Positions 2,660 to 47,398 of a stretch of DNA of 64,000 nucleotides are shown here, one piece after another. How positions within the stretch are numbered: the first letter of the stretch is position 1; each line of letters begins with the position of its first letter. The translations under genes were made by a program, and so were the position numbers. The notes beneath the pieces are model-generated. The model worked only from the letters and a program-made list of their open reading frames with translations, ran no database searches and was not told the DNA's origin. The stretch is from Candidatus Kaistella beijingensis (GTDB lineage Bacteria > Bacteroidota > Bacteroidia > Flavobacteriales > Weeksellaceae): NCBI RefSeq assembly GCF_020084865.1, contig NZ_CP071953.1, forward strand, positions 1,426,001-1,490,000. Direction: 5' to 3'.

Positions 2660-3250
2660 ATGTACAGAATCATAAGCGGTCGCTGGAAATCAAAACGGAT
2701 TTCTGCCCCAAAAAACTTCGATGTTCGCCCAACCACCGACTTTGCGAAGGAAGCACTTTTCAGCATTATTGAAAACCGTTTCGATTTCGATGAGGAGTTC
2801 ATTTCCGTGCTCGATTTGTTTGCGGGAATTGGCTCCATCAGTTTGGAATTTGCTTCACGCGGCTGCAAAGATGTGACTTCGGTAGAAATGAACCCGAAAC
2901 ATGCGGCATTTATTAATTCTACGGCGGCTGAACTTGATATGTCTTTGCAAATCAATGTGCAAAGAGGCGATGTTTTTGAATACTTGAAGAAAAACAGAAA
3001 CCGAAAAACCTACGAATTAGTGGTCGCCGATCCACCGTTCGACACGGAAGAAAAAAAATACAACGAACTGATTGCTTTGGTTTTAAACAATAATTTTTTA
3101 AAGGAAAACGGAATTTTCATTCTGGAACACCAAAGCCGAATGAAACTTGTTCATCCCAATTTGCTCGATACCAGAAAATATGGGAATGTAAGTTTTTCTT
3201 TTTTTAAAGCTAATGAGCGGGAAAGTCTACAAGTAGAGGAAGCTAAATAA
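2660..3250 (+). CDS. rsmD: 16S rRNA (guanine(966)-N(2))-methyltransferase
   Basis: The protein has 196 residues and a Rossmann-type methyltransferase fold. It transfers a methyl group from AdoMet to G966 of 16S rRNA during assembly of the small subunit. Visible motifs are RIISGRWKSKRI near the N-terminus (substrate binding), the AdoMet loop LDLFAGIGSISLEFASRG (about 51-68) and the catalytic VADPPF motif (about 121-126, a DPPF variant of the N6/N2 amino-methyltransferase motif). The length is normal. The gene is convergent with murI. Confidence 0.95.
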   Translation: MYRIISGRWKSKRISAPKNFDVRPTTDFAKEALFSIIENRFDFDEEFISVLDLFAGIGSISLEFASRGCKDVTSVEMNPKHAAFINSTAAELDMSLQINVQRGDVFEYLKKNRNRKTYELVVADPPFDTEEKKYNELIALVLNNNFLKENGIFILEHQSRMKLVHPNLLDTRKYGNVSFSFFKANERESLQVEEAK

Positions 3251-3267
3251 TCTTAACTAAACATTAA

Positions 3268-3323
3268 ACCACCCCGTCAAAAAATTTTCTCTGAAAATTT
3301 TTGACACCCCTCCAAAGGAGGGG
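3268..3323. repeat. Double-hairpin intergenic repeat
   Basis: In the convergent rsmD/murI gap, a near-perfect palindrome (3276-3305, arms GTCAAAAAATTTTC and GAAAATTTTTGAC) is followed at once by a second (3307-3323, CCCCTCC, AAA, GGAGGGG). The second could act as a bidirectional terminator. The combination ending in an aaggagggg word is familiar to me as a dispersed intergenic element of flavobacteria. Confidence 0.75.
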
Positions 3324-3357
3324 AATTTCTCCCAGTTTCCATCATCCAGCTTACAGC

Positions 3358-4188
3358 TTAAAGCACCTTCAGCTCCAAATCAATATTTTTTCCGAAGAAT
3401 TTTTTAGAAATTTTCTCGAAGTTTTTGGTAATGTCCGAAAGGTAGAAATGATAGCTCGGATTGGTGTTGTTTTCGTTGAGCAAGTGGTGTTTTTCCAAAA
3501 TCATTTTCAGCTGACTCGCCACAATATTGGGTGAATCGATGACACGGACGCGGTTTCCATAATACTGTTTAATTTCGTCAATCAGAAGCGGATAATGCGT
3601 ACAACCTAAAATTAAAGTTTCAATGTTTTTTAATTTATTGTTGCTCAAATAATTATAAATGATTGAATGGGTAATGGGGTGATTTTTAAAACCCTCTTCA
3701 ATGGCAGGGACCAAAAGCGGAGTCGCCAATTCATCCACCTTGATAAACTTGTTGTGTTTGCGGATTGATTTTTTGTAAAGTCCAGAATTTACGGTTGCTT
3801 TCGTAGCAATTACGCCCACATTGTTGTGGATTTCATAGGAAACTTTTTCAGCCACAGGATTAATTACATCAATTACCGGAACTTTTTCATTCACCAATTC
3901 CACCACTTCAGTCAAAGCATTTGCGGTTGCAGAATTACAGGCAATTACAATTGCTTTGCAGTTATTTTCCAATAAAAATTTGGTGATTTTTGTGGAATAG
4001 CCTACAATCGCTTCCCGAGATTTTTCACCATAAGGAAGGTGTTTCGTATCTCCAAAATAAATTAAGTCTTCATGCGGAAGAAGTCTCTTGATTTCCTTTG
4101 CGACGGTTAATCCACCAACTCCGGAATCAAAAATCCCAATCGGTTGTTTTGCTGAAAGATGGCTGAAATCCTGTTTTTTCTTTTTCAA
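3358..4188 (-). CDS. murI: Glutamate racemase
   Basis: The protein has 276 residues and makes D-glutamate for peptidoglycan by interconverting L- and D-glutamate without a cofactor. It carries the N-terminal IGIFDSGVGGLTV motif (18-30) and the two catalytic cysteines in their usual settings, Cys84 in IACNSATAN and Cys196 in LGCTHYPLL. The acidic residue of the FDSGVGG motif and LPYGEKS (51-57) complete the active site. The start at 4188 gives a short lysine-rich leader before the fold. A TAnnTTTG-type box (minus, 4204-4211) lies just upstream. Confidence 0.96.
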   Translation of the reverse strand: MKKKKQDFSHLSAKQPIGIFDSGVGGLTVAKEIKRLLPHEDLIYFGDTKHLPYGEKSREAIVGYSTKITKFLLENNCKAIVIACNSATANALTEVVELVNEKVPVIDVINPVAEKVSYEIHNNVGVIATKATVNSGLYKKSIRKHNKFIKVDELATPLLVPAIEEGFKNHPITHSIIYNYLSNNKLKNIETLILGCTHYPLLIDEIKQYYGNRVRVIDSPNIVASQLKMILEKHHLLNENNTNPSYHFYLSDITKNFEKISKKFFGKNIDLELKVL

Positions 4189-7697: not shown

Positions 7698-8777
7698 TTA
7701 TTCAACAATCACTTTTTTAGCTTTCGGTTTTTCTTCCGGTTTTGGAGAAGTGGTTGTTGTAGTTTTTGGCGTTGTTGCAGAAGAAGTTTTCGGTTTCTGT
7801 TCTACAGTAGTCTTTGGTTTTTTCTCCGTCGTTGCTTTTGGAACTTCTGATTTTGGAGTTTCCTGTTTTGGAGTTTCAGTTCTTGGAGTTTCCGGTTTTG
7901 GCTCCGAAACTCTTGGCGCAACTGGTTCTCTATAAACCGGCGGTTCATAATAACTTGGCGGCGGAGTTGTGGTGTCGATTTTAATTCGGTAAATCGAATT
8001 CAGCTGTGAAATTTTGCCGCTCATTTCTGCCGGCGTTTTCTTACTCGCCCAAATATCAATCTGCATTCCCTGATCACGCACATCAAACGAGACCGGATCT
8101 TGATAATAAACAATGTCTGATTCATCGGAACCACCGTCTTCATACTCCACCAAACCAACTTCAAATAAATTTTGAGCGATGATTGCTTTCGCCTGTTGCA
8201 CTGTTAATCCCACTAAATTGGGAACCGAAATATTTCTTTTCGGACCCGCTCCAATTACCAAATCAATCGTTGAAAATCTCGGCAAAAGTGCGCCCGGTTT
8301 TAAAGTCGAGCCATTATACAGCATTCGGATTACTGCATCTCTTTGAATGCTCGGTTCAAAAATAGTATCACCCACTTTTAATCCAACCTGCTCCAATTGC
8401 CTAAAAGCCAAACCTTTATATCGGTCTAAAACATCGGGAACAGATACTTGCGCCCAAGTTCTTGGATTTACTTTTAATATAATGGTTCTTCCGTCTTTCA
8501 CACGCGATCCTGGTGAAGGATAAACCTGCAAAACCTGAAACGGGCGGTATTTTGGATCATACTTAAAACTGTCCACTTCATATTCCAGTCCGGAATCGTC
8601 TAATATTTTGATGGCGTCATGAACGGATTTGTTCATCACATTAGGAACGGGGATTTCTTTACCGTGATTGGTATGAATCTCCAACCAACGGAATGTCAAC
8701 CAAACCAAACCTGTGAAAACTGCCGCCGCTAATAGTATATTTACCAAAACTTTCCAGTGGAAAAGCGATTTAAGCAT
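7698..8777 (-). CDS. PASTA domain-containing membrane protein
   Basis: The protein has 359 residues. One transmembrane helix (about 12-31) is followed by three PASTA domains (about 40-107, 108-180, 184-250) with the typical IPVPNV, SVPDV and SVPNLVG starts. The last 85 residues are a disordered Pro/Thr/Lys/Glu tail made of imperfect repeats of ETPK and KPKTT types. There is no kinase domain, unlike PASTA kinases of Gram-positives. PASTA modules bind peptidoglycan or its precursors, so a periplasmic cell-wall role is likely but unproven. A TAnnTTTG-type box (minus, 8803-8810) precedes the start. Confidence 0.9.
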   Translation of the reverse strand: MLKSLFHWKVLVNILLAAAVFTGLVWLTFRWLEIHTNHGKEIPVPNVMNKSVHDAIKILDDSGLEYEVDSFKYDPKYRPFQVLQVYPSPGSRVKDGRTIILKVNPRTWAQVSVPDVLDRYKGLAFRQLEQVGLKVGDTIFEPSIQRDAVIRMLYNGSTLKPGALLPRFSTIDLVIGAGPKRNISVPNLVGLTVQQAKAIIAQNLFEVGLVEYEDGGSDESDIVYYQDPVSFDVRDQGMQIDIWASKKTPAEMSGKISQLNSIYRIKIDTTTPPPSYYEPPVYREPVAPRVSEPKPETPRTETPKQETPKSEVPKATTEKKPKTTVEQKPKTSSATTPKTTTTTSPKPEEKPKAKKVIVE

Positions 8778-8860
8778 ATTGCTGAAACTTTAAATGTATC
8801 TGCAAATATATAAAATAATCTTTTCGGTAATTGTGGAAATCATTTACAATTATTGTTTCT

Positions 8861-9086
8861 GACCTAGGAGATTTTTGCGTTAAGAAAAATTGAAATTTCT
8901 TTATGCGAGAGTTTTCTTAATGATAACTGAATAAAAATTTCCACTGTTCGAAGCGCGGCAACACATTAACTTCTATAAATAACTTTCCAATCCGCGCAAG
9001 TTTGGAAATTTTCTCAAAAGAAATTTTGATTTTTTAGCAAAAAGATCCAGTCTTGATTTTTTGGATACTTTTGTTTCTTTTGCGGT
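8861..9086 (+). repeat. Palindromic intergenic element, copy A
   Basis: This is the first of three related elements of about 225 bp (others at 12299-12525 and, inverted, 17027-17256). Shared blocks in order are gacctNggagatttttgcgt, aattgaaatttctt, aaaatttccactgttcga, ggaaattttct, ttttgattttttagcaaaaa and tcttgattttttggatact. Block 1 to 3 and block 4 to 5 are approximate reverse complements, so the element can fold into one long imperfect hairpin. It fills most of the gap between the PASTA gene and yicC. Confidence 0.8.
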
Positions 9087-9123
9087 AAAAAAATGTCACG
9101 CACTAAAAAACTTTTGAAATAAT

Positions 9124-9131
9124 TATCTTTG
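9124..9131 (+). promoter_or_regulatory. -7 promoter box of yicC
   Basis: TATCTTTG matches TAnnTTTG and lies 17 bases before the yicC ATG. A -33 TTG at the usual distance is not visible. Confidence 0.5.
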
Positions 9132-9148
9132 CTTATTAAATTCAATCT

Positions 9149-10006
9149 ATGATTTTATCCATGACCGGCTTCGGACGAAGTGAAGGCGTCTTCGAAGGAA
9201 AAAAAATTACCATCGACCTGAAATCGCTCAACAGCAAATCGTTCGACCTCAACATCAAAATGCCTTTACGGTACAAGGAAAAAGAATTCGACATCCGAAA
9301 AGTTTTGAACGATAAAATCCTCCGCGGAAAAGTAGATTGCTACATTAATCTGGAAACACTGAACGATTCCAACGATGTGAATATTAATCATGATTTGGTT
9401 AAATCCTATATCGATGAATTAAAAAAAATTTCTGGTGATGGCCCCGATTTCGAATATTTGAAAATGGCGATTAGATTTCCGGATGCGATTTCCACGAGAC
9501 CCGATGAACTTAATGAAAATGAATGGATTTTCCTCACTGGTTTACTGAATGAGGCGCTTTCAAAGTTTGATAACTTCAGAAAAACAGAGGGTGAAATTTT
9601 GCATGAAGAGCTAAAAAGAAACCTTAAAAATATTGAGGATTATCTTTCTCAGGTGGAACCTCATGAGGACGTCCGAATGGACGGCGTGAAAGAACGTTAC
9701 CGAAAAACATTAAATGAATTCGACCATATCGACGAAACCCGATTCTACCAGGAAATGGCTTATTTTACAGAAAAATTGGATATTTCCGAAGAAAAAGTTC
9801 GGCTCACCCAGCATTTGAAATACTACTACGAAGTGATGAAAAATGAAGATTTCAACGGAAAAAAACTCGGATTCATTTCGCAGGAAATCGGCCGTGAAAT
9901 CAACACGTTGGGTTCAAAAGCCAATCACGCGGAAATCCAAAAATTGGTCGTGATGATGAAGGATGATTTGGAAAAGATTAAGGAGCAAACGTTAAATGTA
10001 CTATAA
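9149..10006 (+). CDS. yicC: YicC/YloC family endoribonuclease
   Basis: The protein has 285 residues. It begins with the family hallmark MILSMTGFGRSEG and has the N-terminal YicC domain (about 1-155) and the C-terminal DUF1732 domain (about 200-285), ending in ...EIQKLVVMMKDDLEKIKEQTLNVL, where the SKANHAEIQ stretch is characteristic. E. coli YicC has been described as an endoribonuclease acting on small RNA. Its usual neighbour gmk follows 83 bases downstream in the same direction, as in many bacteria. Confidence 0.93.
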   Translation: MILSMTGFGRSEGVFEGKKITIDLKSLNSKSFDLNIKMPLRYKEKEFDIRKVLNDKILRGKVDCYINLETLNDSNDVNINHDLVKSYIDELKKISGDGPDFEYLKMAIRFPDAISTRPDELNENEWIFLTGLLNEALSKFDNFRKTEGEILHEELKRNLKNIEDYLSQVEPHEDVRMDGVKERYRKTLNEFDHIDETRFYQEMAYFTEKLDISEEKVRLTQHLKYYYEVMKNEDFNGKKLGFISQEIGREINTLGSKANHAEIQKLVVMMKDDLEKIKEQTLNVL

Positions 10007-10014
10007 ACTTGAAA

Positions 10015-10077
10015 TTGTTTGACTTTGTTTGATTAGAGCGTCTCAAACAATATCAAATATCAAACAAAGTCAAACAA
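10015..10077. repeat. 19-bp perfect inverted repeat between yicC and gmk
   Basis: The 19-base arm TTGTTTGACTTTGTTTGAT (10015-10033) is repeated exactly as its reverse complement at 10059-10077 with a 25-base spacer. There is no U-run, so it is a poor intrinsic terminator. The same ttgtttga word makes up repeats at 10694-10742 and 47779-47862. Confidence 0.9.
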
Positions 10078-10089
10078 CATCAAATTTAA

Positions 10090-10653
10090 ATGAATAAAGT
10101 CATCATATTTTCAGCACCAAGTGGAAGTGGAAAAACCACTTTGGTAAAGCATTGTTTGGAACATTTTCCTGAACTTGAATTTTCAATTTCGTGTACAACA
10201 AGAAATCCTCGCGGAACGGAAAAAGACGGGGTGGATTATCATTTCATTTCTCCTGAAAAATTTCGTCAGAAAATTTGGGAAGAAGCCTTCGTAGAATTCG
10301 AGGAAGTATATGAAGACAAATATTACGGAACCCTAAAATCCGAAGTTGAAAGAATCTGGAACGATGGAAAAACCGTGATTTTCGATGTGGACGTGAAAGG
10401 CGGAATCGCCCTGAAAAAATATTTCGGCGAACAAGCATTATCGATTTTTATTATGCCTCCTTCGATTCAGGAGTTGGAACGAAGATTGATTGCAAGAGCT
10501 ACGGAAGACGCAGAAACCATACAAACAAGAGTGGAAAAGGCAGAACAGGAAATGACTTTTCAAAACGAATTTGACAAAATTTTAGTGAATACTGATTTAG
10601 AAACCGCAAAAGCGGAGATCGAAAAATTAGTGAGCGAATTTTTAAATTCTTAA
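10090..10653 (+). CDS. gmk: Guanylate kinase
   Basis: The protein has 187 residues and phosphorylates GMP to GDP with ATP. It has the P-loop SAPSGSGKTTLV (about 8-19), the GMP-binding region SCTTRNPRGTEKDGVDYHFIS (about 33-53) and VIFDVDVKGG (about 94-103). The length is that of the normal single-domain enzyme. The gene probably shares a transcript with yicC. Confidence 0.96.
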   Translation: MNKVIIFSAPSGSGKTTLVKHCLEHFPELEFSISCTTRNPRGTEKDGVDYHFISPEKFRQKIWEEAFVEFEEVYEDKYYGTLKSEVERIWNDGKTVIFDVDVKGGIALKKYFGEQALSIFIMPPSIQELERRLIARATEDAETIQTRVEKAEQEMTFQNEFDKILVNTDLETAKAEIEKLVSEFLNS

Positions 10654-40666: not shown

Positions 40667-40684
40667 TGGTTTTTAATCGGTTTA

Positions 40685-40798
40685 GGGCTTGGCGTAGTGG
40701 CGGTTTTAAAGCACTACAGTTGATACGAAGCAAGAACGTTCAAATTTAGCAAAAATGTTCATACGAAACACTTCGCCCGCAATTACTCCAAACCCTTG
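40685..40798. repeat. Long imperfect palindrome at the island edge
   Basis: GGGCTTGGCGTAGTGGCGG (40685-40703) is mirrored at 40771-40789 by a sequence whose reverse complement matches it at 15 of 19 bases. Within the loop, GAACGTT (40731-40737) and AATGTTC can also pair. It ends in CCCTTGTTATGCC. I recognise the words ggcgtagtggcggtttt and cccttgttatgc from junctions of accessory genes in other Bacteroidota. Confidence 0.7.
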
Positions 40799-40858
40799 TT
40801 ATGCCTTCGCCCTCCTGTTTTCGTCCTATTTGGCAGTCCGTTTGTTGGTGAGTTGGCT

Positions 40859-40921
40859 TGGTAGCTCTTTTGCAATTTTGTTTGGATTTGTGCGTTTGGA
40901 AAAATGCAAATGTGCTACCAA
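40859..40921. repeat. Left flanking hairpin of the defence island
   Basis: TTGGTAGC-tc-TTTTGCA at the left pairs with TGCAAA-tgt-GCTACCAA at the right, giving an 8-bp stem, an asymmetric TC/TGT internal loop and a second stem of 6 or more bp. The loop contains GTGCGTTTGGAAAA. It ends 10 bases after the last gene of the island. It matches 46588-46646 in design. Confidence 0.75.
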
Positions 40922-40931
40922 TTGCGTTGGG

Positions 40932-41987
40932 TTACTCATATAGACTTTCATAAATTCCGTCTTTTGATAGTTCTTCAACAAGAAAATCTACCCAATCTTC
41001 TGTATAAAGATATGTTTCGTTAGGTTGGTCATAAACACAATGTTCTGCTTTTGTGATTTCAGGTTGTTGAGCATTATTGATAGGTCTTACTTCATATTTT
41101 TTCCAACATCTCGTATGCGTGTCCATATTGAACTTATCTTTTTCTTTTCCATTTTTATGGATTTTGGGACTACCTAATGCAGACTGAACTTTTTCAACAA
41201 CAATTCCTGGTTTTAATAAATCCTTATTTGTTACTGCTACTTGAATGAATTTGTTTTTAACGAGTGCGGCAACTCTATTAACATTAGTTTTTTGATTTTC
41301 ATCAAGTTTATCATAAGCTACAAATTGAATTGGTAATGTGTTTTTTGACTGATGATTTGCGACTTGAATTAAGAACGCTTTAAATGAATATTCTCCACTA
41401 TCTAATACGTCTGCCGTTATGGCACTTCTATATGATTTAATGAAATCTACAATAGGTTTTGTTGTAGGATTGGCAACAACAGCATTATTCAAACTTTTGG
41501 AGGAGGGGTACAATTGTAAAGCGAACGATAAACATTCTCGTAAACAATATTCTTTTCCAAACTCTTTTTCCATTATCTTATCGTAATTCAATAGTAATGA
41601 TTGACATTCTGCAAAAATATCAGAATCTATTTCGGGGATAGATTTATGCTCAATCATATTACGAAGCGGAATAAAAAATTCAAGGTTTTTTCTTATAGGA
41701 TTATTTGTGTCAGTTTTAAAATATTCCTTTAAGCAAGTGCTCAATTCCCAATAACAATAATCTCCATCTTTCTTGTCAAATCTATTGTTGGTTTTGTAAA
41801 AAGGTTTCTTTTTTTGTTTAAAGAATATAGCGTGAAATAAAGAAGTCCAAGAAATTACCATTAGAACAATATAACCCCCCGACTTAAATTTTACGGCAGG
41901 TTTATTGTACGTTTCAACCGCCAATAATGCTGAGTCAACGGATTTTTCTAAACATTTTTTTACAGATTTTGGTAATCCCCTTGGCAT
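40932..41987 (-). CDS. DUF3644 domain protein with HEPN-type motif
   Basis: The protein has 351 residues and no signal peptide. The N-terminal 120 residues are helical and include the DUF3644 core (SAGLLAVETYNKP-like start, then GGYIVLMVISWTSLFHAIFF) and PLRNMIEHKS, where Arg109 and His114 fit the RxxxxH motif of HEPN ribonucleases. The C-terminal half is mixed alpha/beta and includes RCWKKYEVRPIN near 292-303. HEPN proteins often act as RNA-cutting toxins in defence systems; that role here is inference. It is the last gene of the island operon, 4 bases after the frameshifted gene. Confidence 0.8.
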   Translation of the reverse strand: MPRGLPKSVKKCLEKSVDSALLAVETYNKPAVKFKSGGYIVLMVISWTSLFHAIFFKQKKKPFYKTNNRFDKKDGDYCYWELSTCLKEYFKTDTNNPIRKNLEFFIPLRNMIEHKSIPEIDSDIFAECQSLLLNYDKIMEKEFGKEYCLRECLSFALQLYPSSKSLNNAVVANPTTKPIVDFIKSYRSAITADVLDSGEYSFKAFLIQVANHQSKNTLPIQFVAYDKLDENQKTNVNRVAALVKNKFIQVAVTNKDLLKPGIVVEKVQSALGSPKIHKNGKEKDKFNMDTHTRCWKKYEVRPINNAQQPEITKAEHCVYDQPNETYLYTEDWVDFLVEELSKDGIYESLYE

Positions 41988-41991
41988 AATC

Positions 41992-42368
41992 CTACAAATT
42001 TAAACCACGATTAAAGTCTGCTAAATGTTGTGCTGCAATTGTTGCTGTAATTGCATTTACGTCTTGGTTGTGTCCAAGTTGAACAGCATGATTTGTTGCA
42101 AGATATTCTATGTATTCGTTACAGTTAATCCTGTGAATAATATTATTTACTCCTGCCGAAAAAGCATTGCTGGATATGCAGGAAAGTTTGCAACGTTTTG
42201 ATAACAATGTATTCTTCCTTCACTTCCCCAAGCACCTTGATTTTCGTTATGTTCCCAATGAATAGAAGTTGTTCCGTCATTTTTTGAGAGAAAGCCAAGT
42301 GCTTCAAAAAAATCGCTGTTCGATGCAAATTGAATTTGCTGTTTTGTCCCGAAAATTAGTTGTGTCAT
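41992..42368 (-). pseudogene. Small island protein interrupted by a homopolymer frameshift
   Basis: Two overlapping frames make one sensible protein if one base is added to the run of five A (plus strand 42159-42163). The first frame reads MTQLIFGTKQQIQFAS... to ANFPAYPAMLF and then stops after four codons; the second continues SAGVNNIIHRINC...HLADFNRGLNL. The product would be about 124 residues. I do not recognise the family. The gene starts 11 bases after the HNH gene ends. It may be a real frameshift, a sequencing error in a homopolymer, or programmed slippage. Confidence 0.65.
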
Positions 42369-42379
42369 ATTTTTTGGTT

Positions 42380-42751
42380 TTAAAGGTCATTATAAATTGT
42401 TGCCAATTCCGTTTTGATTTGTCTGAAACTCAAATCAAAATTCAGTTCTTGGCTCAATCCTGTGTTTATGCAATAAATGAACGATTCTTTTCGGTAATAC
42501 AACTCGTTTTTCTTTAACGATTTTTCAATGCTGTCCGATTTTGCAAGTAAGCAAACAAGTTGATAATCGGGATTTATCGCATCTGTTTTGTTACTTGGGT
42601 GTGCCTTTGTATAATATTGCGTTGCTGTCAGTTTGATTAAGTTTTCCAAATAGTGAGCGAGTTGTGGAAACTTACTTTTTGGAAAAATGTGATGTATTTG
42701 CGTTGCATCGCCATTTGCCCATTGGTCTCTAACTTCACTTTCAGAATACAT
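42380..42751 (-). CDS. HNH endonuclease domain protein
   Basis: The protein has 123 residues. TQIHHIFPKSKF (His20, His21) and YLENLIKLTATQYYTKAHPSN (Asn37, His51) are the halves of an HNH nuclease site as found in type II restriction enzymes. The ATG follows directly on the TAA of the upstream 111-residue frame, and both are in the same frame (43087 and 42751 differ by a multiple of three). This is therefore probably the C-terminal half of one 235-residue nuclease cut by a nonsense codon, unless re-initiation or read-through occurs. Confidence 0.78.
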   Translation of the reverse strand: MYSESEVRDQWANGDATQIHHIFPKSKFPQLAHYLENLIKLTATQYYTKAHPSNKTDAINPDYQLVCLLAKSDSIEKSLKKNELYYRKESFIYCINTGLSQELNFDLSFRQIKTELATIYNDL

Positions 42752-43087
42752 TTACTTGATTTGGTTCATTGCTTTTTGAACCAAATAAACGTTAAATGCT
42801 GTATCAGTTAATACATTTTGTTCACTTTCGGTATTTGCTTCTTGTCGTGAAATGGTTTTGTCTTTTGACACATCACGCCAATTTTTGCGGTTATACATTA
42901 AGTCCGTGTAATAAAATTCATTATCAGACATTCGACCTTTTACCGAAACAGGTAAATTGTTTTCACAAGCATAAATATTCAGTAACTTCGGATAAATACG
43001 CCTTACTTCAACATCTCCTTTGATTGCTGTATTTCCGATAATGAATTTGATAAAACGCTTTTGCAAATCTTCAAAAATATATTTCAC
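42752..43087 (-). CDS. Unknown protein, probable N-terminal half of the HNH nuclease
   Basis: The protein has 111 residues. It includes VEVRRIYPKLLNIYACEN and FYYTDLMYNRKNWRDVSKDK, a pattern reminiscent of restriction endonuclease N-termini, but I cannot name the family. The frame ends in TAA directly before the in-frame ATG of the HNH protein, with a natural-looking continuation (AMNQIK, then MYSESEVRDQW). The start at 43087 is one base downstream of the dinD-like stop, which suggests coupling. Confidence 0.65.
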   Translation of the reverse strand: MKYIFEDLQKRFIKFIIGNTAIKGDVEVRRIYPKLLNIYACENNLPVSVKGRMSDNEFYYTDLMYNRKNWRDVSKDKTISRQEANTESEQNVLTDTAFNVYLVQKAMNQIK

Positions 43088-43948
43088 TTATATTTTGTTG
43101 TTCTTTTCTTGAATTTTCTTTACCTCTTTCAAGATTTTCTTTTCTTCACTTTCTAATCTTCTTTCTACTTTTTTGACATCTTCTGCTGGTGGAAGTTGTT
43201 CTGGTTTTACACCTCTATCGTGTAACATTTTTCTTACTGCCAAATTATTTTCGATATGTTCTTTAGTAATTTGATTGTCGCCTTTTAAATTTTTATCTAC
43301 AACATTATGGCTTGTCAATTCTGTTGCAAAATCTTTTGCTTTAATTGTTAGAGTTGGAAGAAAATCGGCTAATGGTCGATTTGCAGGAACTTGCAAGATA
43401 CGTTTCATATCGTTTGTGGTTCTTCCTCCAAATAACGCTTGGTCTCCTTTTGAACGAATAATTGCAAAGCTTTTATTATCAACTCCTCGTTCAAAAATAA
43501 TTCCTGATAATTTCTTTTCGGATTGAGATAGTTTTTCACGAGCCGTAACTCTTGCTACATCTAATAATCTTTTTTCTATAATTTCTTGTTTCCGAGTTTG
43601 AACTGCAAAATAGGTTTGAGCAAAAGCAATTTCTGATTTTGTAGTTGAATCACCATTTTGTGCAATCAAATAACAAGCGTATCTTGTCAAAGCAATATCT
43701 TCAATTGGTTTTTGGGCTCCGCTACCGATTTCGACCATTTTGCTGAATTCAGCAAAATGGTTTTTAGTATCTTCTCCTGCCTGTTCACAAGATTTTTCAG
43801 CTTTCTCAATAACATTTTTAAAATTCCTCCATTGAGAATATCCAAGAATGTTTTGTAATTCTCTTGCACTCCAACATTCTACGTCCTCATAATCGTAACA
43901 AGCATCTTCAAACTTCTTAAAAAGTTCGGATATAAATTCCTTTTTCAT
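43088..43948 (-). CDS. dinD: DNA damage-inducible protein D homologue
   Basis: The protein has 286 residues. ECWSARELQNILGYSQWRNF (about 24-43) is a BRO/ANT-like DNA-binding start. It continues HFAEFSKMVEIGSGAQKPIEDIALTRYACYLIAQNGD, the strongest DinD signature (about 63-99), and FAQTYFAVQTRKQE. The C-terminus is a charged coiled coil (about 240-286). E. coli DinD is an SOS-induced protein reported to inhibit RecA. Its place inside a restriction operon is notable. The ATG overlaps the stop of the preceding small gene by one base. Confidence 0.9.
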   Translation of the reverse strand: MKKEFISELFKKFEDACYDYEDVECWSARELQNILGYSQWRNFKNVIEKAEKSCEQAGEDTKNHFAEFSKMVEIGSGAQKPIEDIALTRYACYLIAQNGDSTTKSEIAFAQTYFAVQTRKQEIIEKRLLDVARVTAREKLSQSEKKLSGIIFERGVDNKSFAIIRSKGDQALFGGRTTNDMKRILQVPANRPLADFLPTLTIKAKDFATELTSHNVVDKNLKGDNQITKEHIENNLAVRKMLHDRGVKPEQLPPAEDVKKVERRLESEEKKILKEVKKIQEKNNKI

Positions 43949-44217
43949 CAGTTGATTGTATTTAATGTTTTTCTGAAAGAATGATATTTCAAAATTGTAT
44001 CGTAAAAATCATCATAGTTCCAATTCCCGTTTTCTTCTTGATATATCAATTCTGAATTAAAATCGGCTTTGAAAATGAATAATGGAAAATGATTTTTGTC
44101 CCAATTATTCTTATCTAAACAAAAATTTTCGGCTTCACTTAAAGTTTCAAAAATTTCATAAGTTGAACGGTCATCTGTATAATAATGCTCAACTGCATAC
44201 ATTATTTTTGTTTCCAT
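43948..44217 (-). CDS. Small acidic protein of unknown function
   Basis: The protein has 89 residues, rich in Asp, Glu, Asn and aromatic residues (ETLSEAENFCLDKNNWDKNH, ENGNWNYDDFYDTILKYHSF). No known domain is evident. It lies 3 bases after the DUF3883 gene and overlaps dinD by one base, so it is translated with them. A partner or inhibitor of a nuclease is possible, but nothing in the sequence proves it. Confidence 0.65.
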   Translation of the reverse strand: METKIMYAVEHYYTDDRSTYEIFETLSEAENFCLDKNNWDKNHFPLFIFKADFNSELIYQEENGNWNYDDFYDTILKYHSFRKTLNTIN

Positions 44218-44220
44218 ATT

Positions 44221-44991
44221 TTACCAATTTAAGTGTTCTGTATGATAATTAACTTGTATAGAACTCAACTCTTTTCGGTTGAATTTTAAATTTTTCAAAG
44301 GATTTTCAATAACATTTAATTGCGGTGTTTTTGATAAATTGCTAACTACTACAAGAAAATAATCATCTTTATATTCTTCGGCTTTGACAAATTCATTTTG
44401 TGTAATTCTGATTGAACCTTTTTTATTTCTTACACCTTTTATTTCTGCTAAAACAAATTTTTCCTGTAATTGAATTTGGAAATCATAACCATCGCCCCAT
44501 AATCTTGCATCTTGTAACAAGCCACTTTCAAAAACAGGAACAGCCTTGTAATTGCTCATAAAGAAAAATTCCGCTTCGTTTCCCGTTTCTTGTAATTGTT
44601 TGAATTTTGATTTTACAATCGGCTGAACTTCTTTTGTCGGAAGTATCAATTTTTTGTCGTACTCCTTGATGAATAATTTTACAATGTTTGCAAATGATGT
44701 TACATCTTCATTTCCGAAAAGACTATCAATAAATAACTTAACGTGTTCTCTTTGATTTCTTTGCCACCAACCTTTTCTACCATTTTCAAAATATGGGTCG
44801 AAACTATCTTGTCGATTTGAAACTGCTTTTTCTGTTTTTGCCAAGCCTAATTCTACAACAAATTTATTGAACGCTGTTTTTGTATTGCATCCAAATTCTT
44901 TCGCAAAAGCCAAATCGAATTTTGCTAATCCGTAACCAATCAAATTCATTATTTCTGATTGTCTTTCACTTTCGTTCAATTCATTTTCCAT
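44221..44991 (-). CDS. DUF3883 domain protein, likely PD-(D/E)xK restriction nuclease
   Basis: The protein has 256 residues. The N-terminal part (1-125) is helical and may bind DNA. The C-terminal DUF3883 part shows the nuclease core: Glu140 (GNEAEFFF), Asp170 (WGDGYDFQIQ) and the E-x-K pair Glu183/Lys185 in FVLAEIKGVR, followed by GSIRITQNEFVKAEEYKDDYFLVVVSNL. That order fits Mrr-like endonuclease folds. It overlaps the methyltransferase stop by one base (TAATG), as a cognate restriction partner would. Confidence 0.85.
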   Translation of the reverse strand: MENELNESERQSEIMNLIGYGLAKFDLAFAKEFGCNTKTAFNKFVVELGLAKTEKAVSNRQDSFDPYFENGRKGWWQRNQREHVKLFIDSLFGNEDVTSFANIVKLFIKEYDKKLILPTKEVQPIVKSKFKQLQETGNEAEFFFMSNYKAVPVFESGLLQDARLWGDGYDFQIQLQEKFVLAEIKGVRNKKGSIRITQNEFVKAEEYKDDYFLVVVSNLSKTPQLNVIENPLKNLKFNRKELSSIQVNYHTEHLNW

Positions 44992-46160
44992 TAAGTGACT
45001 TGTTTTAATGCGTTAGGGATTGCAGTGGAAATCCTTTTGAGAGGAACGAGCGAAAGATTGGAACGGAAAGCCCGACCGTAGGGAACGCCCAATTTCAAAA
45101 ACATTTTCTTTTCGAGAATGCTCAAATTATTCAACTTTTCAGTTGATGTATTTGACCATTGAAAAGTATCGGGAATACTCATCGTCAGCATTAGTTCCCT
45201 AATGCTGAAAACTCTGTTTTCTGATGGATGAACAGTATTTTGACTTGATAAAATGTCGTTTCTTGTATGTACGCAAGGACCTTCTCTATCCCAATACCAA
45301 CGAGCATATTTGTCTCCGTTTTTACTTTCGTTAAAAACAATTTTTCCGTCTTTAATTTGGTGCGGAATACGTTCTTTTTCAGTGTTTTGAAATGCGGATT
45401 CTCCTTCTTTCAAATTCTCAATCCAAGGTAACATTTTGGGATTGTATTCTCTAAACGAATGGAAAATATCGCTTTGAGATATTTGTCCCATTTCATTGAG
45501 TTCTTCCAATCCTTTAAAAAGTTTTCTTAATGTTTTTGGCTTTTGTTTTTCGGGAAAAATATCGAACGGACTAATGTTTTGTAAATCTTTTCTAACGCCA
45601 ATTACAAGCGTTCTTGTTCTGCTCGAATTGGAACCATAATCTTTGAAATTTACAACCTTAAAAAGTATATTGTAATGTCCTCCTAAATTTAATTTTATAG
45701 CTTCTTCAATTGTTTTTTCCATTCCGTCAATGTCGGTGCAAGTTGTATTTAAAAATGCTCTTACATTTTCAAAAATAAAGAATTTCGGATTGACTTCTTT
45801 CGTGATTTTTATGGATTCCACAACCAAAGAATTTCTTGTCAATTCTTCGTTTTTCTTGTGGTTGGCAACTGACATTCCTTGACAAGGTGGAGTAGCTATA
45901 ATTACATCAGGTTCGTAAATTTTGTATTCAGCTTGCCATTTTTTGATTTCTTCAAAAAGCTTGTTTTTGATTTCTTTTGTTGAAATGTCTCCGTCCAAAT
46001 AACCTGTATCGTATTTACATTTATTGTTAAACACTTGAATTTTCAAGCGTTTTGTCAAGATTTCGTTTGTTGCAATGCACTCAAAACCGTTTTGTTTGAA
46101 ACCAAAACAACCAACTCCCGCACTGCTAAATAAACTTATATATGTCAATGGTTTGTTCAT
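44991..46160 (-). CDS. DNA (cytosine-5-)-methyltransferase with an abnormal C-terminus
   Basis: The protein has 389 residues. Motif I is SLFSSAGVGCFGF (9-21), motif IV with the catalytic Cys93 is IIATPPCQGMS (87-97), motif VI is FENVRAF (130-136) and motif VIII is SSRTRTLVIGVR. The target-recognition part lies at about 190-300. The end is odd: residues about 357-384 (VPYGRAFRSNLSLVPLKR...) are encoded by a dispersed repeat, and the usual motif X (GEAVPxxIF-like) is missing. The enzyme may therefore be weakened or inactive. Confidence 0.88.
   Translation of the reverse strand: MNKPLTYISLFSSAGVGCFGFKQNGFECIATNEILTKRLKIQVFNNKCKYDTGYLDGDISTKEIKNKLFEEIKKWQAEYKIYEPDVIIATPPCQGMSVANHKKNEELTRNSLVVESIKITKEVNPKFFIFENVRAFLNTTCTDIDGMEKTIEEAIKLNLGGHYNILFKVVNFKDYGSNSSRTRTLVIGVRKDLQNISPFDIFPEKQKPKTLRKLFKGLEELNEMGQISQSDIFHSFREYNPKMLPWIENLKEGESAFQNTEKERIPHQIKDGKIVFNESKNGDKYARWYWDREGPCVHTRNDILSSQNTVHPSENRVFSIRELMLTMSIPDTFQWSNTSTEKLNNLSILEKKMFLKLGVPYGRAFRSNLSLVPLKRISTAIPNALKQVT
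45010..45090. repeat. Dispersed repeat inside the methyltransferase 3' end
   Basis: The stretch containing gcgttagggattgcagtgg and gattggaacggaaagcccg, ending in accgtagggaacgccc, is one I recognise as a high-copy intergenic sequence of Chryseobacterium relatives. Here it lies within an open reading frame. Confidence 0.65.
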
Positions 46161-46163
46161 AGT

Positions 46164-46490
46164 TTAGAATTTTATTTCGGTTTGTTTTACGTTCTTGCTT
46201 TTCAAATAATTAACTTTTTCTTCGGCTACAATTAGAGTTTCAGTCGAACAATTGTAAGCGTACATTTTTTTAGCGAATTGGTCACCAAAATATTCGGTTT
46301 TCAGTTTTTCAAAATCAAGGTCAAAAGCGGTTGCCAATTTATCTAATCGCTTTTCGTCAAATTCTCGTTTGTTATTTTCAATTTTACTCAAATTTGCAGA
46401 GTCAAGTTTGAGAAGTGCGGCAAGTTCAGTCAAAGTAAAACCTTTGTCTGTCCTTAATTGTCTTATATATTCTCCAAACGTTGCTTTCAT
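46164..46490 (-). CDS. XRE family controller protein of the island
   Basis: The protein has 108 residues. An HTH_3 domain (about 6-62) includes LRTDKGFTLTELAALLKLDSANLSKIENNKR, followed by a short tail ending KSKNVKQTEIKF. It resembles controller proteins of restriction-modification systems. It is the first gene of the operon, 3 bases before the methyltransferase, and a perfect inverted repeat sits over its promoter. Confidence 0.9.
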   Translation of the reverse strand: MKATFGEYIRQLRTDKGFTLTELAALLKLDSANLSKIENNKREFDEKRLDKLATAFDLDFEKLKTEYFGDQFAKKMYAYNCSTETLIVAEEKVNYLKSKNVKQTEIKF

Positions 46491-46508
46491 TTGCTTGTAA
46501 ATTTTAAC

Positions 46509-46552
46509 TTGTCAATCATTGACAAAGTTAGCTAAATATTTTAGTTCTACAA
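46509..46552 (-). promoter_or_regulatory. Promoter and controller operator of the island operon
   Basis: On the minus strand, TTG (46552-46550), a 19-base spacer and TAACTTTG (46530-46523) form a full promoter. A perfect inverted repeat, TTGTCAA-tca-TTGACAA (46509-46525), overlaps the -7 box and the start region, an arrangement suited to autorepression by the XRE protein. Confidence 0.75.
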
Positions 46553-46587
46553 TTTTTTTGTCGGATTTTTTTGAGCGTTGGGAAAAT

Positions 46588-46646
46588 TCAAGCTCTTTTG
46601 GTTTTTAGCGGTGGGTTTGTGCGGTTGGAAAACCAAATGTGCTTGA
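46588..46646. repeat. Right flanking hairpin of the defence island
   Basis: TTCAAGC-tc-TTTTGGTTTT pairs with AAAACCAAA-tgt-GCTTGAA. The TC/TGT internal loop and the GTGCGGTTGGAAAA loop match the left element at 40859-40921, while both stems differ by changes on both sides that keep pairing. Confidence 0.75.
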
Positions 46647-46826
46647 ATGTGCGGTGGGTTTTAGAGTGAGGAATAACAAACGCAATAGACGCAAAGTTGC
46701 TTTGATAATAATGCTGCTTTTCTTGAAACTGTTAAGTACTCAAAGGCGTTACACTTAGCAACGAAACTCTTAATAATTATATAATTAAAAAACTCGTATC
46801 TCTAATCCCGTAACTCGCAACTCGCA

Positions 46827-47321
46827 TCACTTTCTAAAACTCCACGGTGAAACTGCATTTGGGTCGCTCCATAAACCGACTTTGTTTTTCATCGCCAATT
46901 CCTCTAATCTTGCATATTCTAAATTGGAAGAATATTTTTTGTAATACCATGCTAAACCTGATTTCACCATTTCTTTGTTGACATTAGTTCCGTCTTCCAA
47001 AATAATTTCAGAAATCAGTCTGCCTCTGGAATCGTAATTCCCATTTCTGCCGTTGCTGATTATGGTGACATTTTTCCCAAAACACAAATCCGAAAGTTTT
47101 TCTTTTGATTTCGTTCCGAAAGGTTGTCTTTTTTCAGGCGCGTCGATGTGTTCAAGCCGAATATTGATCGGGAACTGGTAATACAGTCCTTCCACGGTGT
47201 CGCCATCTTTCACACCGATGATTTTCATTTTTAGAACGACTTGGTTTTTTTGGAGGTGGAAAGTTCCGGGAATTAATGAATTACTTGAGAATAACAGGAA
47301 TAGGAAAAATATTTTATTCAT
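46827..47321 (-). CDS. Secreted thermonuclease family protein
   Basis: The protein has 164 residues. A signal peptide (MNKIFFLFLLFSSNSLIPGTF) precedes an SNase-like OB-fold domain: VKDGDTVEGLYY, IRLEHIDAPEKRQPFG, SDLCFGKNVTIISNG, NYDSRGRLISEI and MVKSGLAWYYKKYSS. Residues for calcium binding and the catalytic Arg/Glu pattern (IRL, DSRGR) appear present. It cleaves DNA or RNA outside the cytosol. It stands on the right flank of the island but looks like a host gene. Confidence 0.92.
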   Translation of the reverse strand: MNKIFFLFLLFSSNSLIPGTFHLQKNQVVLKMKIIGVKDGDTVEGLYYQFPINIRLEHIDAPEKRQPFGTKSKEKLSDLCFGKNVTIISNGRNGNYDSRGRLISEIILEDGTNVNKEMVKSGLAWYYKKYSSNLEYARLEELAMKNKVGLWSDPNAVSPWSFRK

Positions 47322-47398
47322 TATTTATTTAGGAAAATTGAAAAACTCGTTTATAAATTAAAATTTTCATCATTAGTAGAAAAATTCAAATATAAATG

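Follow-up and report, generated by a model that had tools for sequence, protein, structure and literature searches.

Do genes packed closely on one strand necessarily belong to one defence system? We consider this question for the operon at 40932-46490 of a 64,000-nucleotide (nt) stretch of Candidatus Kaistella beijingensis DNA (the whole stretch is called the window), in which an XRE-type gene, a C5-methyltransferase, a DUF3883 protein, a small acidic protein, DinD, a supposed HNH gene, another small gene and a DUF3644 protein follow one another. A sequence-only reading had taken them as layered immunity, with restriction first and an abortive response behind it. According to the list of open reading frames (ORFs), the gene order, the minus strand and the small gaps and overlaps are as that reading stated, and domain searches uphold the identities of the XRE, C5-methyltransferase, DUF3883 (NOV_C), DinD and DUF3644 proteins. 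The answer that we reach is nevertheless a different one: the operon is probably a mosaic inside one inserted integron-like gene cassette, and not a designed layered system.

The surroundings of the operon and its interior both bear on this answer. In four of the 28 genus relatives fetched, those with a neighbour gene 83-85% identical, the flanking genes lie 0.14-0.24 kb apart and the island is absent; because the flanking genes nearly adjoin in these closest relatives, the island is an insertion. Its outer ends, an attC-like site (element A) and a hairpin (hairpin B), recur elsewhere with different cargo. Inside the island, blastn against related operons at two loci (L062 and L056; L-numbers denote loci fetched from genomes and G-numbers genomes, G000 being the organism's own) gives the same breakpoints, 45093 and 43076. 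The window segments 46661-45093 and 43076-41992 are 82-85% identical in DNA to both loci, and the 2,016 bp between them (45092-43077) sit where L062 has 1,943 bp (8505-10447). The features of the operon, from the control gene onwards, are the following.

46164-46490, minus strand: XRE-type control protein, 108 amino acids (aa); Pfam HTH_3, 42.9 bits; 88-90% identical in L056 and L062
44991-46160, minus strand: C5-methyltransferase ORF, consisting of an ancestral part (45093-46160) and a foreign tail (44991-45092)
43077-45092: replacement block of 2,016 bp (33-aa tail, DUF3883, 89-aa acidic protein, DinD), bounded by the identical breakpoints against L062 and L056
44991-45092, minus strand: foreign 33-aa methyltransferase tail, from a DNA element recurring elsewhere
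44221-44991, minus strand: DUF3883/NOV_C protein, 256 aa, restriction-endonuclease-like; Pfam PF13020, 51.4 bits
43948-44217, minus strand: 89-aa acidic protein of no known family; no Pfam or PADLOC match
43088-43948, minus strand: DinD (BRO-N domain), 286 aa, intact; NCBIfam PRK11525, 352.6 bits; PADLOC PDC-S13, 387.5 bits
42752-43087, minus strand: endonuclease, middle piece; PDLC03488 positions 166-270, 55 bits
42380-42751, minus strand: endonuclease, C-terminal piece; PDLC03488 positions 280-380, 88 bits; 90% identical to L056 and L062
42147-42368, minus strand: small gene, 5' part; 84-86% identity to residues 1 to 65-70 of the intact L062 and L056 proteins
41992-42207, minus strand: small gene, 3' part in another frame; 66-69% identity to residues 67/68-125 of the 125-aa proteins in L062 and L056
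40932-41987, minus strand: DUF3644 HEPN-type protein, 351 aa, intact; Pfam PF12358, 172.8 bits; PADLOC PDC-S19, 474.7 bits

Comparison with related restriction operons

The operons that resemble the outer segments are few. With the methyltransferase as query at E 1e-40, seven of 296 genomes of the family match, and with the endonuclease family as query at E 1e-6, four of 395 genomes of the phylum do, the own genome being counted in both. A two-domain fused methyltransferase (834-837 aa) adjoins an endonuclease of 392-401 aa in L055, L056, L057, L062, L063, L064 and L065, with one additional gene between the two in L063; L067 has the pair too, its methyltransferase cut by the contig start, which brings the total to eight loci. 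An XRE relative stands upstream of the pair in six of the eight (not in L057; L067 is cut), and a small gene of 114-125 aa follows the endonuclease in three (L056, L057, L062). In L066 the methyltransferase is split and no endonuclease lies on the short contig; behind the split gene a 331-aa protein is encoded (2878-3873), the C-terminal third of which resembles the 125-aa small protein. An R-M (restriction-modification) system thus does underlie the operon, as the sequence-only reading had it, although with another partner: DUF3883 was considered as the native endonuclease of this methyltransferase and rejected, because an HNH-like protein takes that place in the eight loci.

The next question is what remains of this R-M system in the window. 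The ancestral part of the methyltransferase scores 427 bits against PDLC03370 and is 73-90% identical to residues 1-356 of the 834-835-aa proteins in L025-L028. Homology ends at residue 356 of the relatives' 835, where the foreign tail takes over, and absent from the window protein are the segment IGEAVP, which we take to be motif X, and the whole second domain. In the relatives this second domain has an NPPY motif and gives weak matches, below the cut-offs, to adenine-specific BREX methyltransferase models, from which it may be N6-adenine-specific. The replaced 1,943 bp of L062 encode the end of the C5 domain (with motif X), the second domain and the first ~168 residues of the endonuclease. 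What had been drawn as an intact HNH gene is in fact two pieces of one restriction endonuclease, matching consecutive parts (166-270 and 280-380) of a single 430-position model, PDLC03488, with an in-frame TAA between them; the N-terminus, the first ~165 model positions, is missing, and the DNA homology begins at 43076. The HNH label itself is weak, as the Pfam HNH model gives 14.8 bits, under its cut-off of 21.4, and the intact L062 protein has no Pfam match at 1e-5. The small gene that follows is likewise not one gene as drawn: its two pieces, in different frames, belong to one 125-aa gene that is intact in the relatives and frameshifted in the window. Of a type II R-M system, the window therefore holds an incomplete methyltransferase and a cognate endonuclease that is not intact. 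Because the cofactor motif, the second methyltransferase domain and the endonuclease N-terminus are gone, the original restriction activity is most likely lost.

Upstream of the operon there is one further feature.

46509-46525: 17-nt palindrome TTGTCAATCATTGACAA, with 8-nt arms around one base, read from the sequence upstream of the XRE gene

Its outer arms TTGTC...GACAA are retained in L056, L062, L063 and L064 and changed in L010 and L113; the palindrome is likely an operator of the XRE gene.

The exchanged segment

We turn to the block that occupies the middle of the operon. Distant matches to the DNA encoding the methyltransferase tail occur in 60 plasmid records, of which 31 are from Bacteroides; the two plasmid contexts opened contain no annotated methyltransferase. 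Relatives of DUF3883 at 52-54% identity occur in two of the 395 phylum genomes; a short C5-methyltransferase-like gene precedes one of them, and a gene of Vsr-like appearance, judged by eye, precedes the other. Small acidic genes overlap the ends of DUF3883 relatives in L058 (6406-6651) and L059 (7005-7268), in place of the 89-aa gene, and no similarity between these genes and the 89-aa gene of the window is detected. The 89-aa protein has no Pfam or PADLOC match at E 0.1 and one weak NCBIfam match below the cut-off; among 256 genomes of the family (E 0.001), only the own genome contains it. Scans of viral contigs with DUF3883 and the small protein, and a plasmid search with the small protein, give no lead. 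DinD, with 352.6 bits over residues 1-279 of 286 against an NCBIfam equivalog cut-off of 242, is a member of its family.

Do these three genes belong together elsewhere? For the 89-aa protein 25 homologues are listed, one being the window's own; for DUF3883 the list covers 120 of 1,925 homologues, and for DinD 119 sizes are available of 7,987. Among the matches listed, seven homologues of the 89-aa protein have a longest contig of the same size as that of a DUF3883 homologue, and there is one such pair between the 89-aa protein and DinD and one between DUF3883 and DinD. These exact matches in longest-contig size, the contigs themselves not having been read, suggest that DUF3883, the 89-aa protein and DinD form an older block.

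It is then conceivable that the exchange made a new working system, with the truncated C5-methyltransferase protecting the DNA, DUF3883 cutting it and the acidic protein regulating the two. DUF3883 relatives do adjoin C5-methyltransferase-like genes (L058, L061) or the Vsr-like one (L059), a different small acidic gene overlaps the end of the relative in L058 and L059, and the stop of the window methyltransferase overlaps the start of DUF3883; the motif X segment that its relatives have is missing from the methyltransferase, however, and its tail is read from a recurring DNA element. We regard such a new system as unlikely, though worth keeping in view. In the absence of a functional methyltransferase, one would expect a DUF3883 nuclease to damage the host cell, except if it were silent or acted on modified DNA only.

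Ends of the inserted unit

Two kinds of element make up these ends, which the sequence-only reading did not see.

40669-40807, minus strand: attC-like site, element A, ~138 nt; cassette 3' end in gene direction; profile match 40678-40932
46670-46677: end box GGAATAAC; cassette 5' end; complementary to GTTATGCC save one base
40852-40932: hairpin B, left copy (CTCTTTTG...CAAATGTGC), immediately behind the DUF3644 stop and before element A
46574-46656: hairpin B, right copy, upstream of the XRE gene

Beside the island lies a thermonuclease-like gene (46827-47321, named by eye), and the stretch 46678-47398 is also missing in the relatives with an empty site.

Element A carries an end box, GTTATGCC, at 40798-40805. 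Its profile was run without eight loci that repeat the window, and the alignment holds 36 of the 43 listed sites, seven of unusual length or poor box placement being omitted. The family has 15 predicted pairs, and 92.2% of the cells are paired, compared with 68.1% in shuffled alignments and 40-55% when one side is slid, the last comparison favouring the stem because that very alignment served to define it. For covariation the score is 0.609, with 0.190 for shuffles, and neither this score nor the pairing is reached by any of 500 shuffles; the number of further pair types is reached by 12 of 500. The family thus keeps its structure and varies in sequence, in the manner of attC sites. The copy in the window keeps 13 of the 15 pairs. 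Four other copies, out of the 35 others aligned, were folded, with z-scores of -6.5, -4.1, -2.4 and -1.2, and the window copy may be a worn one. Unpaired columns interrupt the stem, and we do not equate them with the extrahelical bases or the central spacer of known attC sites.

Complementarity of boxes across the cargo is the signature of arrayed integron cassettes, in which the cargo stands between the two box halves. We counted such boxes at 62 sites, the window's not among them, after dropping 16 repeat loci, sites whose profile match starts after position 18 and sites without an end box. For consecutive element A sites, the box after one is complementary to the box before the next (at least 8/9) in 18 of 38 pairs; in the controls this level is reached by 190 of 3,744 other combinations and, for boxes belonging to one site, by 4 of 62. 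In the window, GTTATGCC (at 40798) is complementary to GGAATAAC (ending at 46677) at 8/9, a level that these boxes reach with the boxes of other sites in 3/62 and 1/62 cases, and the homology with L113 and L119 ends at GGAATAAC. The 18 cassettes supported by their boxes measure 491 to 9,832 bp, and all 36 of their ORFs of at least 100 aa read towards the site at the 3' end, as does the operon in the window.

The second element, hairpin B, matches its pattern twice in the window, against 0.03 expected. Compared with shuffles, the DNA of the right copy folds 4.3 standard deviations lower and that of the left copy 1.95; the left copy is 87% identical to one on a Chryseobacterium oryzae plasmid. 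The pattern is found in 44 of the 296 family genomes, with up to 30 copies (G057), as opposed to 3 of 296 for the reversed pattern, and some of the matches, without flanks, look like chance. At the loci of the C. oryzae plasmid (L052/L116) and at L109, a tyrosine recombinase gene overlaps an IS91 transposase gene with hairpin B behind, and on that plasmid two copies of the recombinase enclose a large operon of restriction type.

Could an IS91/ISCR-type rolling-circle element have moved the island, with hairpin B as its origin end and the attC-like site as a passenger? On the C. oryzae plasmid, hairpin B stands ~0.3 kb behind an IS91 transposase and a tyrosine recombinase; complete or partial copies of IS91 or its recombinase are present in the hairpin B loci L086, L109, L115 and L119. 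The island genes, however, include no transposase, the sequence of hairpin B varies while its arms, by eye, stay complementary, unlike the end of an insertion sequence, and the pairing of the end boxes and the orientation of the genes fit cassettes. Transport of this kind is improbable in our judgement.

DUF3644 in other operons

The last gene of the unit offers a direct view of what travels with what. At 172.8 bits against a Pfam cut-off of 27.6, and with the HEPN motif R-x4-H (R109, H114) invariant in 14 aligned sequences including its own, the window protein belongs to the DUF3644 family. The scan of named genomes yields 14 loci, ten with full-length and four with partial genes, and in the stretches fetched around them DinD, DUF3883, the endonuclease pieces, the 125-aa gene and a close methyltransferase are absent. 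Restriction genes of other kinds do occur there: in L010 the DUF3644 operon includes an XRE gene (51%) and a weak match to the methyltransferase (29%), and in three of the ten full-length loci (L015, L016, L018) DUF3644 comes directly after HsdS and before HsdR, immediately or one to two genes later. Pfam confirms HsdS and HsdR in these three and HsdM in the two tested. In L010, L011, L013, L014 and L016, DNA homology starts within a few bases of the DUF3644 start codon, and DUF3644 therefore moves as a single gene. It is an exchangeable HEPN gene that occurs in restriction operons; in 2013, ties of such HEPN proteins to restriction and a function resembling that of PrrC were proposed, in the part of that work used here (PMC3710099).

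DUF3644 is then linked to restriction, as had been proposed, with neither DinD nor this endonuclease nearby. DinD, which had been counted as part of the set, stands by annotation without these partners in the six plasmid regions opened (seven are listed with an annotated dinD). The sequence-only reading had itself said that the single-system idea would fall if DUF3644, DinD and the HNH gene proved to be mostly apart and in no set order in related genomes, and on these loci it does fall. That XRE, C5-methyltransferase and DUF3883 restriction, followed by DinD, HNH and DUF3644 as an abortive back-up, would be one layered system is very unlikely: the close spacing, the overlaps, the single direction, the recurrence of DUF3644 in restriction operons and the same-size longest contigs that suggest a DUF3883 - small protein - DinD block elsewhere speak for it, but none of the 14 DUF3644 loci has DinD, DUF3883 or the endonuclease, DinD occurs without partners, the HNH-like gene lacks ~168 residues and contains a stop, and 255 further family genomes are without the small protein at E 0.001.

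Other cassettes and the host array

If the unit is a cassette, what do other cassettes carry? In L110 it is a D12 methyltransferase with its endonuclease. A related XRE gene in L113 is followed by a methyltransferase, an endonuclease with a weak match and a Fic protein. L105 has PIN and AAA proteins together with an MkoA-like helicase, and L021 a DUF3584 protein that weakly matches JetD. An LmuB-like protein is carried by L115 and an N4/N6-type methyltransferase by L106. Not all cargo is defence, as a 9.8-kb cassette in the own genome (L054, 5235-15066) contains secreted-type proteins. A protein of ~240 aa, with SEVGHA(K/R)NVANLQKL near its start, recurs in L054, L101, L102, L108 and L114 (shorter in L114); large secreted-type proteins adjoin it in several loci, and by appearance it is not a defence protein.

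The own genome (G000:C1) has 18 element A matches at 194.8-232.5 kb and three more at 259-263 kb, all on one strand, and 27 of the 31 ORFs of at least 100 aa in the array at 194.8-232.5 kb run in its direction. Next to this array (L183-L185) a 360-aa tyrosine recombinase is encoded at 191479-192561, transcribed divergently from the sites; it scores 208.6 bits with the XerA/integron-type model (cut-off 220) and 187.7 bits with the integron integrase model (cut-off 265). Since it falls below the integron integrase cut-off, the system is filed as integron-like. A canonical integron integrase of 414.7 bits is found in another Bacteroidota genome, at G583:C1 3153556-3154491 (L158, L178), which also holds L056, far off; this integrase was considered as the enzyme of the element A sites and rejected, there being no A-type site at E 0.001 in the surrounding 34 kb.

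On balance, and with some reserve, we lean towards a wider picture for the family. The Weeksellaceae would have an integron-like system, so far unrecognised, in which an XerA/IntI-like tyrosine recombinase, and not a canonical IntI, acts on 138-nt attC-like sites; its cassettes of 0.5-9.8 kb, often multi-gene and many of them anti-phage, would swap their insides and so produce the patchwork in the window, the array of the host being the one at 194.8-232.5 kb.

Model of assembly

Comparison with related operons shows how the interior of the unit was put together. A type II-like operon with an XRE control gene, a fused methyltransferase, an HNH-like endonuclease and the 125-aa gene had its middle 1.94 kb swapped for the 2.0-kb block of DUF3883, the acidic protein and DinD. 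The remaining endonuclease and 125-aa genes are broken by the in-frame stop and the frameshift, and the DUF3644 gene, with the downstream hairpin and the attC-like site, forms the 3' end of the unit. The whole of ~6.0 kb (40678-46677) may have moved via its attC-like site folded as single-stranded DNA and recombined in trans by a tyrosine recombinase, for which the XerA/IntI-like enzyme beside the array at 191-232 kb is a candidate. The sequence-only reading was right in treating the genes as a unit to the extent that they adjoin and have probably moved together; one purpose-built system they are not.

Which parts would still be alive? The reading frames of the XRE gene, DUF3883, the 89-aa protein, DinD and DUF3644 are uninterrupted, and DUF3644 and DinD match the PADLOC single-gene candidate families PDC-S19 and PDC-S13. 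The most probable living part is DUF3644, presumably as a self-directed RNase released under attack; DinD is possibly still working as well.

Several observations weigh against the cassette mosaic or against details of it, apart from the bias in the slid-stem comparison. The stop and the frameshift could be sequencing errors, whereas the 1.94-kb replacement could not. The methyltransferase tail contains ISTAIPNAL, loosely motif X-like, and its stop overlaps the DUF3883 start; because of that segment, we infer the loss of methyltransferase activity and do not state it as a fact. Because 46678-47398 is missing from the relatives too, the insertion target can be placed only roughly. In the window, element A lies on one side of the island only, and on its own it does not fold more stably than its shuffles, with z -0.85 for one strand and 0.30 for the other. 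In its family, 11 pairs have any double change, a number that 49 of 500 shuffles reach. Below 8/9 are 20 of the 38 consecutive box pairs, where sites may have been missed or boxes misplaced, and the loci were chosen via hairpin B or homologues, not randomly. IS91 genes lie near hairpin B in several loci. Many of the element A matches in the own array are partial and weak (E up to 0.04), and four of its 31 ORFs of at least 100 aa run opposite to the array. Finally, a canonical integron integrase is absent in 19 of 20 genomes that are rich in sites or have related loci, the own genome included.

Comparison with known systems

The oldest layer of the operon is closest to type II R-M systems with a control protein (PDLC03277/PDLC03370, PDLC03488), with the same order of XRE gene, methyltransferase and endonuclease and an operator-like palindrome before the XRE gene; it differs from them in what is gone, namely motif X and the second domain of the methyltransferase, ~168 residues of the endonuclease and an intact frame in the 125-aa gene. 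The DUF3644 protein resembles the EC042_2821 HEPN family (PDC-S19) in its invariant R-x4-H and its place in restriction operons, in three loci between HsdS and HsdR. Compared with the PrrC-like guards as outlined in PMC3710099, the operon has no ABC ATPase like that of PrrC, and its DUF3644 gene ends a broken type II operon. DinD (PRK11525; PDC-S13) is nearly full-length and over its equivalog cut-off, and differs by lying in a restriction cassette.

The unit as a whole resembles integron cassettes and clusters of attC sites lacking integron integrases (CALINs), as the sections of the IntegronFinder 2.0 paper used here describe them (PMC9024848), in its foldable 3' attC-like site, the paired boxes and the arrays of one orientation. 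According to the same sections, a survey of Bacteroidetes first saw only cassette-less integrases and subsequently a single complete integron, from Salinibacter. A close precedent is Riemerella anatipestifer, also of the Weeksellaceae, for which a 2026 paper reports, in the portion used here (PMC13148043), that a gene is taken up independently of homology and has at its 3' side a stretch of 140 bp with a predicted attC-like fold; that stretch of ~140 bp with predicted stem-loops and insertion free of homology is like ours, with a single gene there and an operon here. Our system differs from integrons in that a canonical IntI is missing in 19 of 20 genomes and that seven of the 18 supported cassettes are of 3-9.8 kb and multi-gene.

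Implications

Defence genes in integrons are on record for other bacteria. Among the titles listed in the literature on DinD, IS91, integrons in this group and integron-borne defence, none is on such multi-gene cassettes in Weeksellaceae, and as far as these titles show, multi-gene defence operons as cassettes of this family and the mosaic exchange of their insides are new.

For the operon that we began with, the lesson is that close-packed runs of genes can mix dead and living parts, and that a common direction alone is no proof of one system. If the cassette reading is true, entire defence operons are shuffled as cassettes of folded DNA by one family of the Bacteroidota, and this in a phylum for which a survey had reported few integrons. 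The reading would then explain how defence islands are assembled in this group, and it would make the recombinase and its site directly testable.

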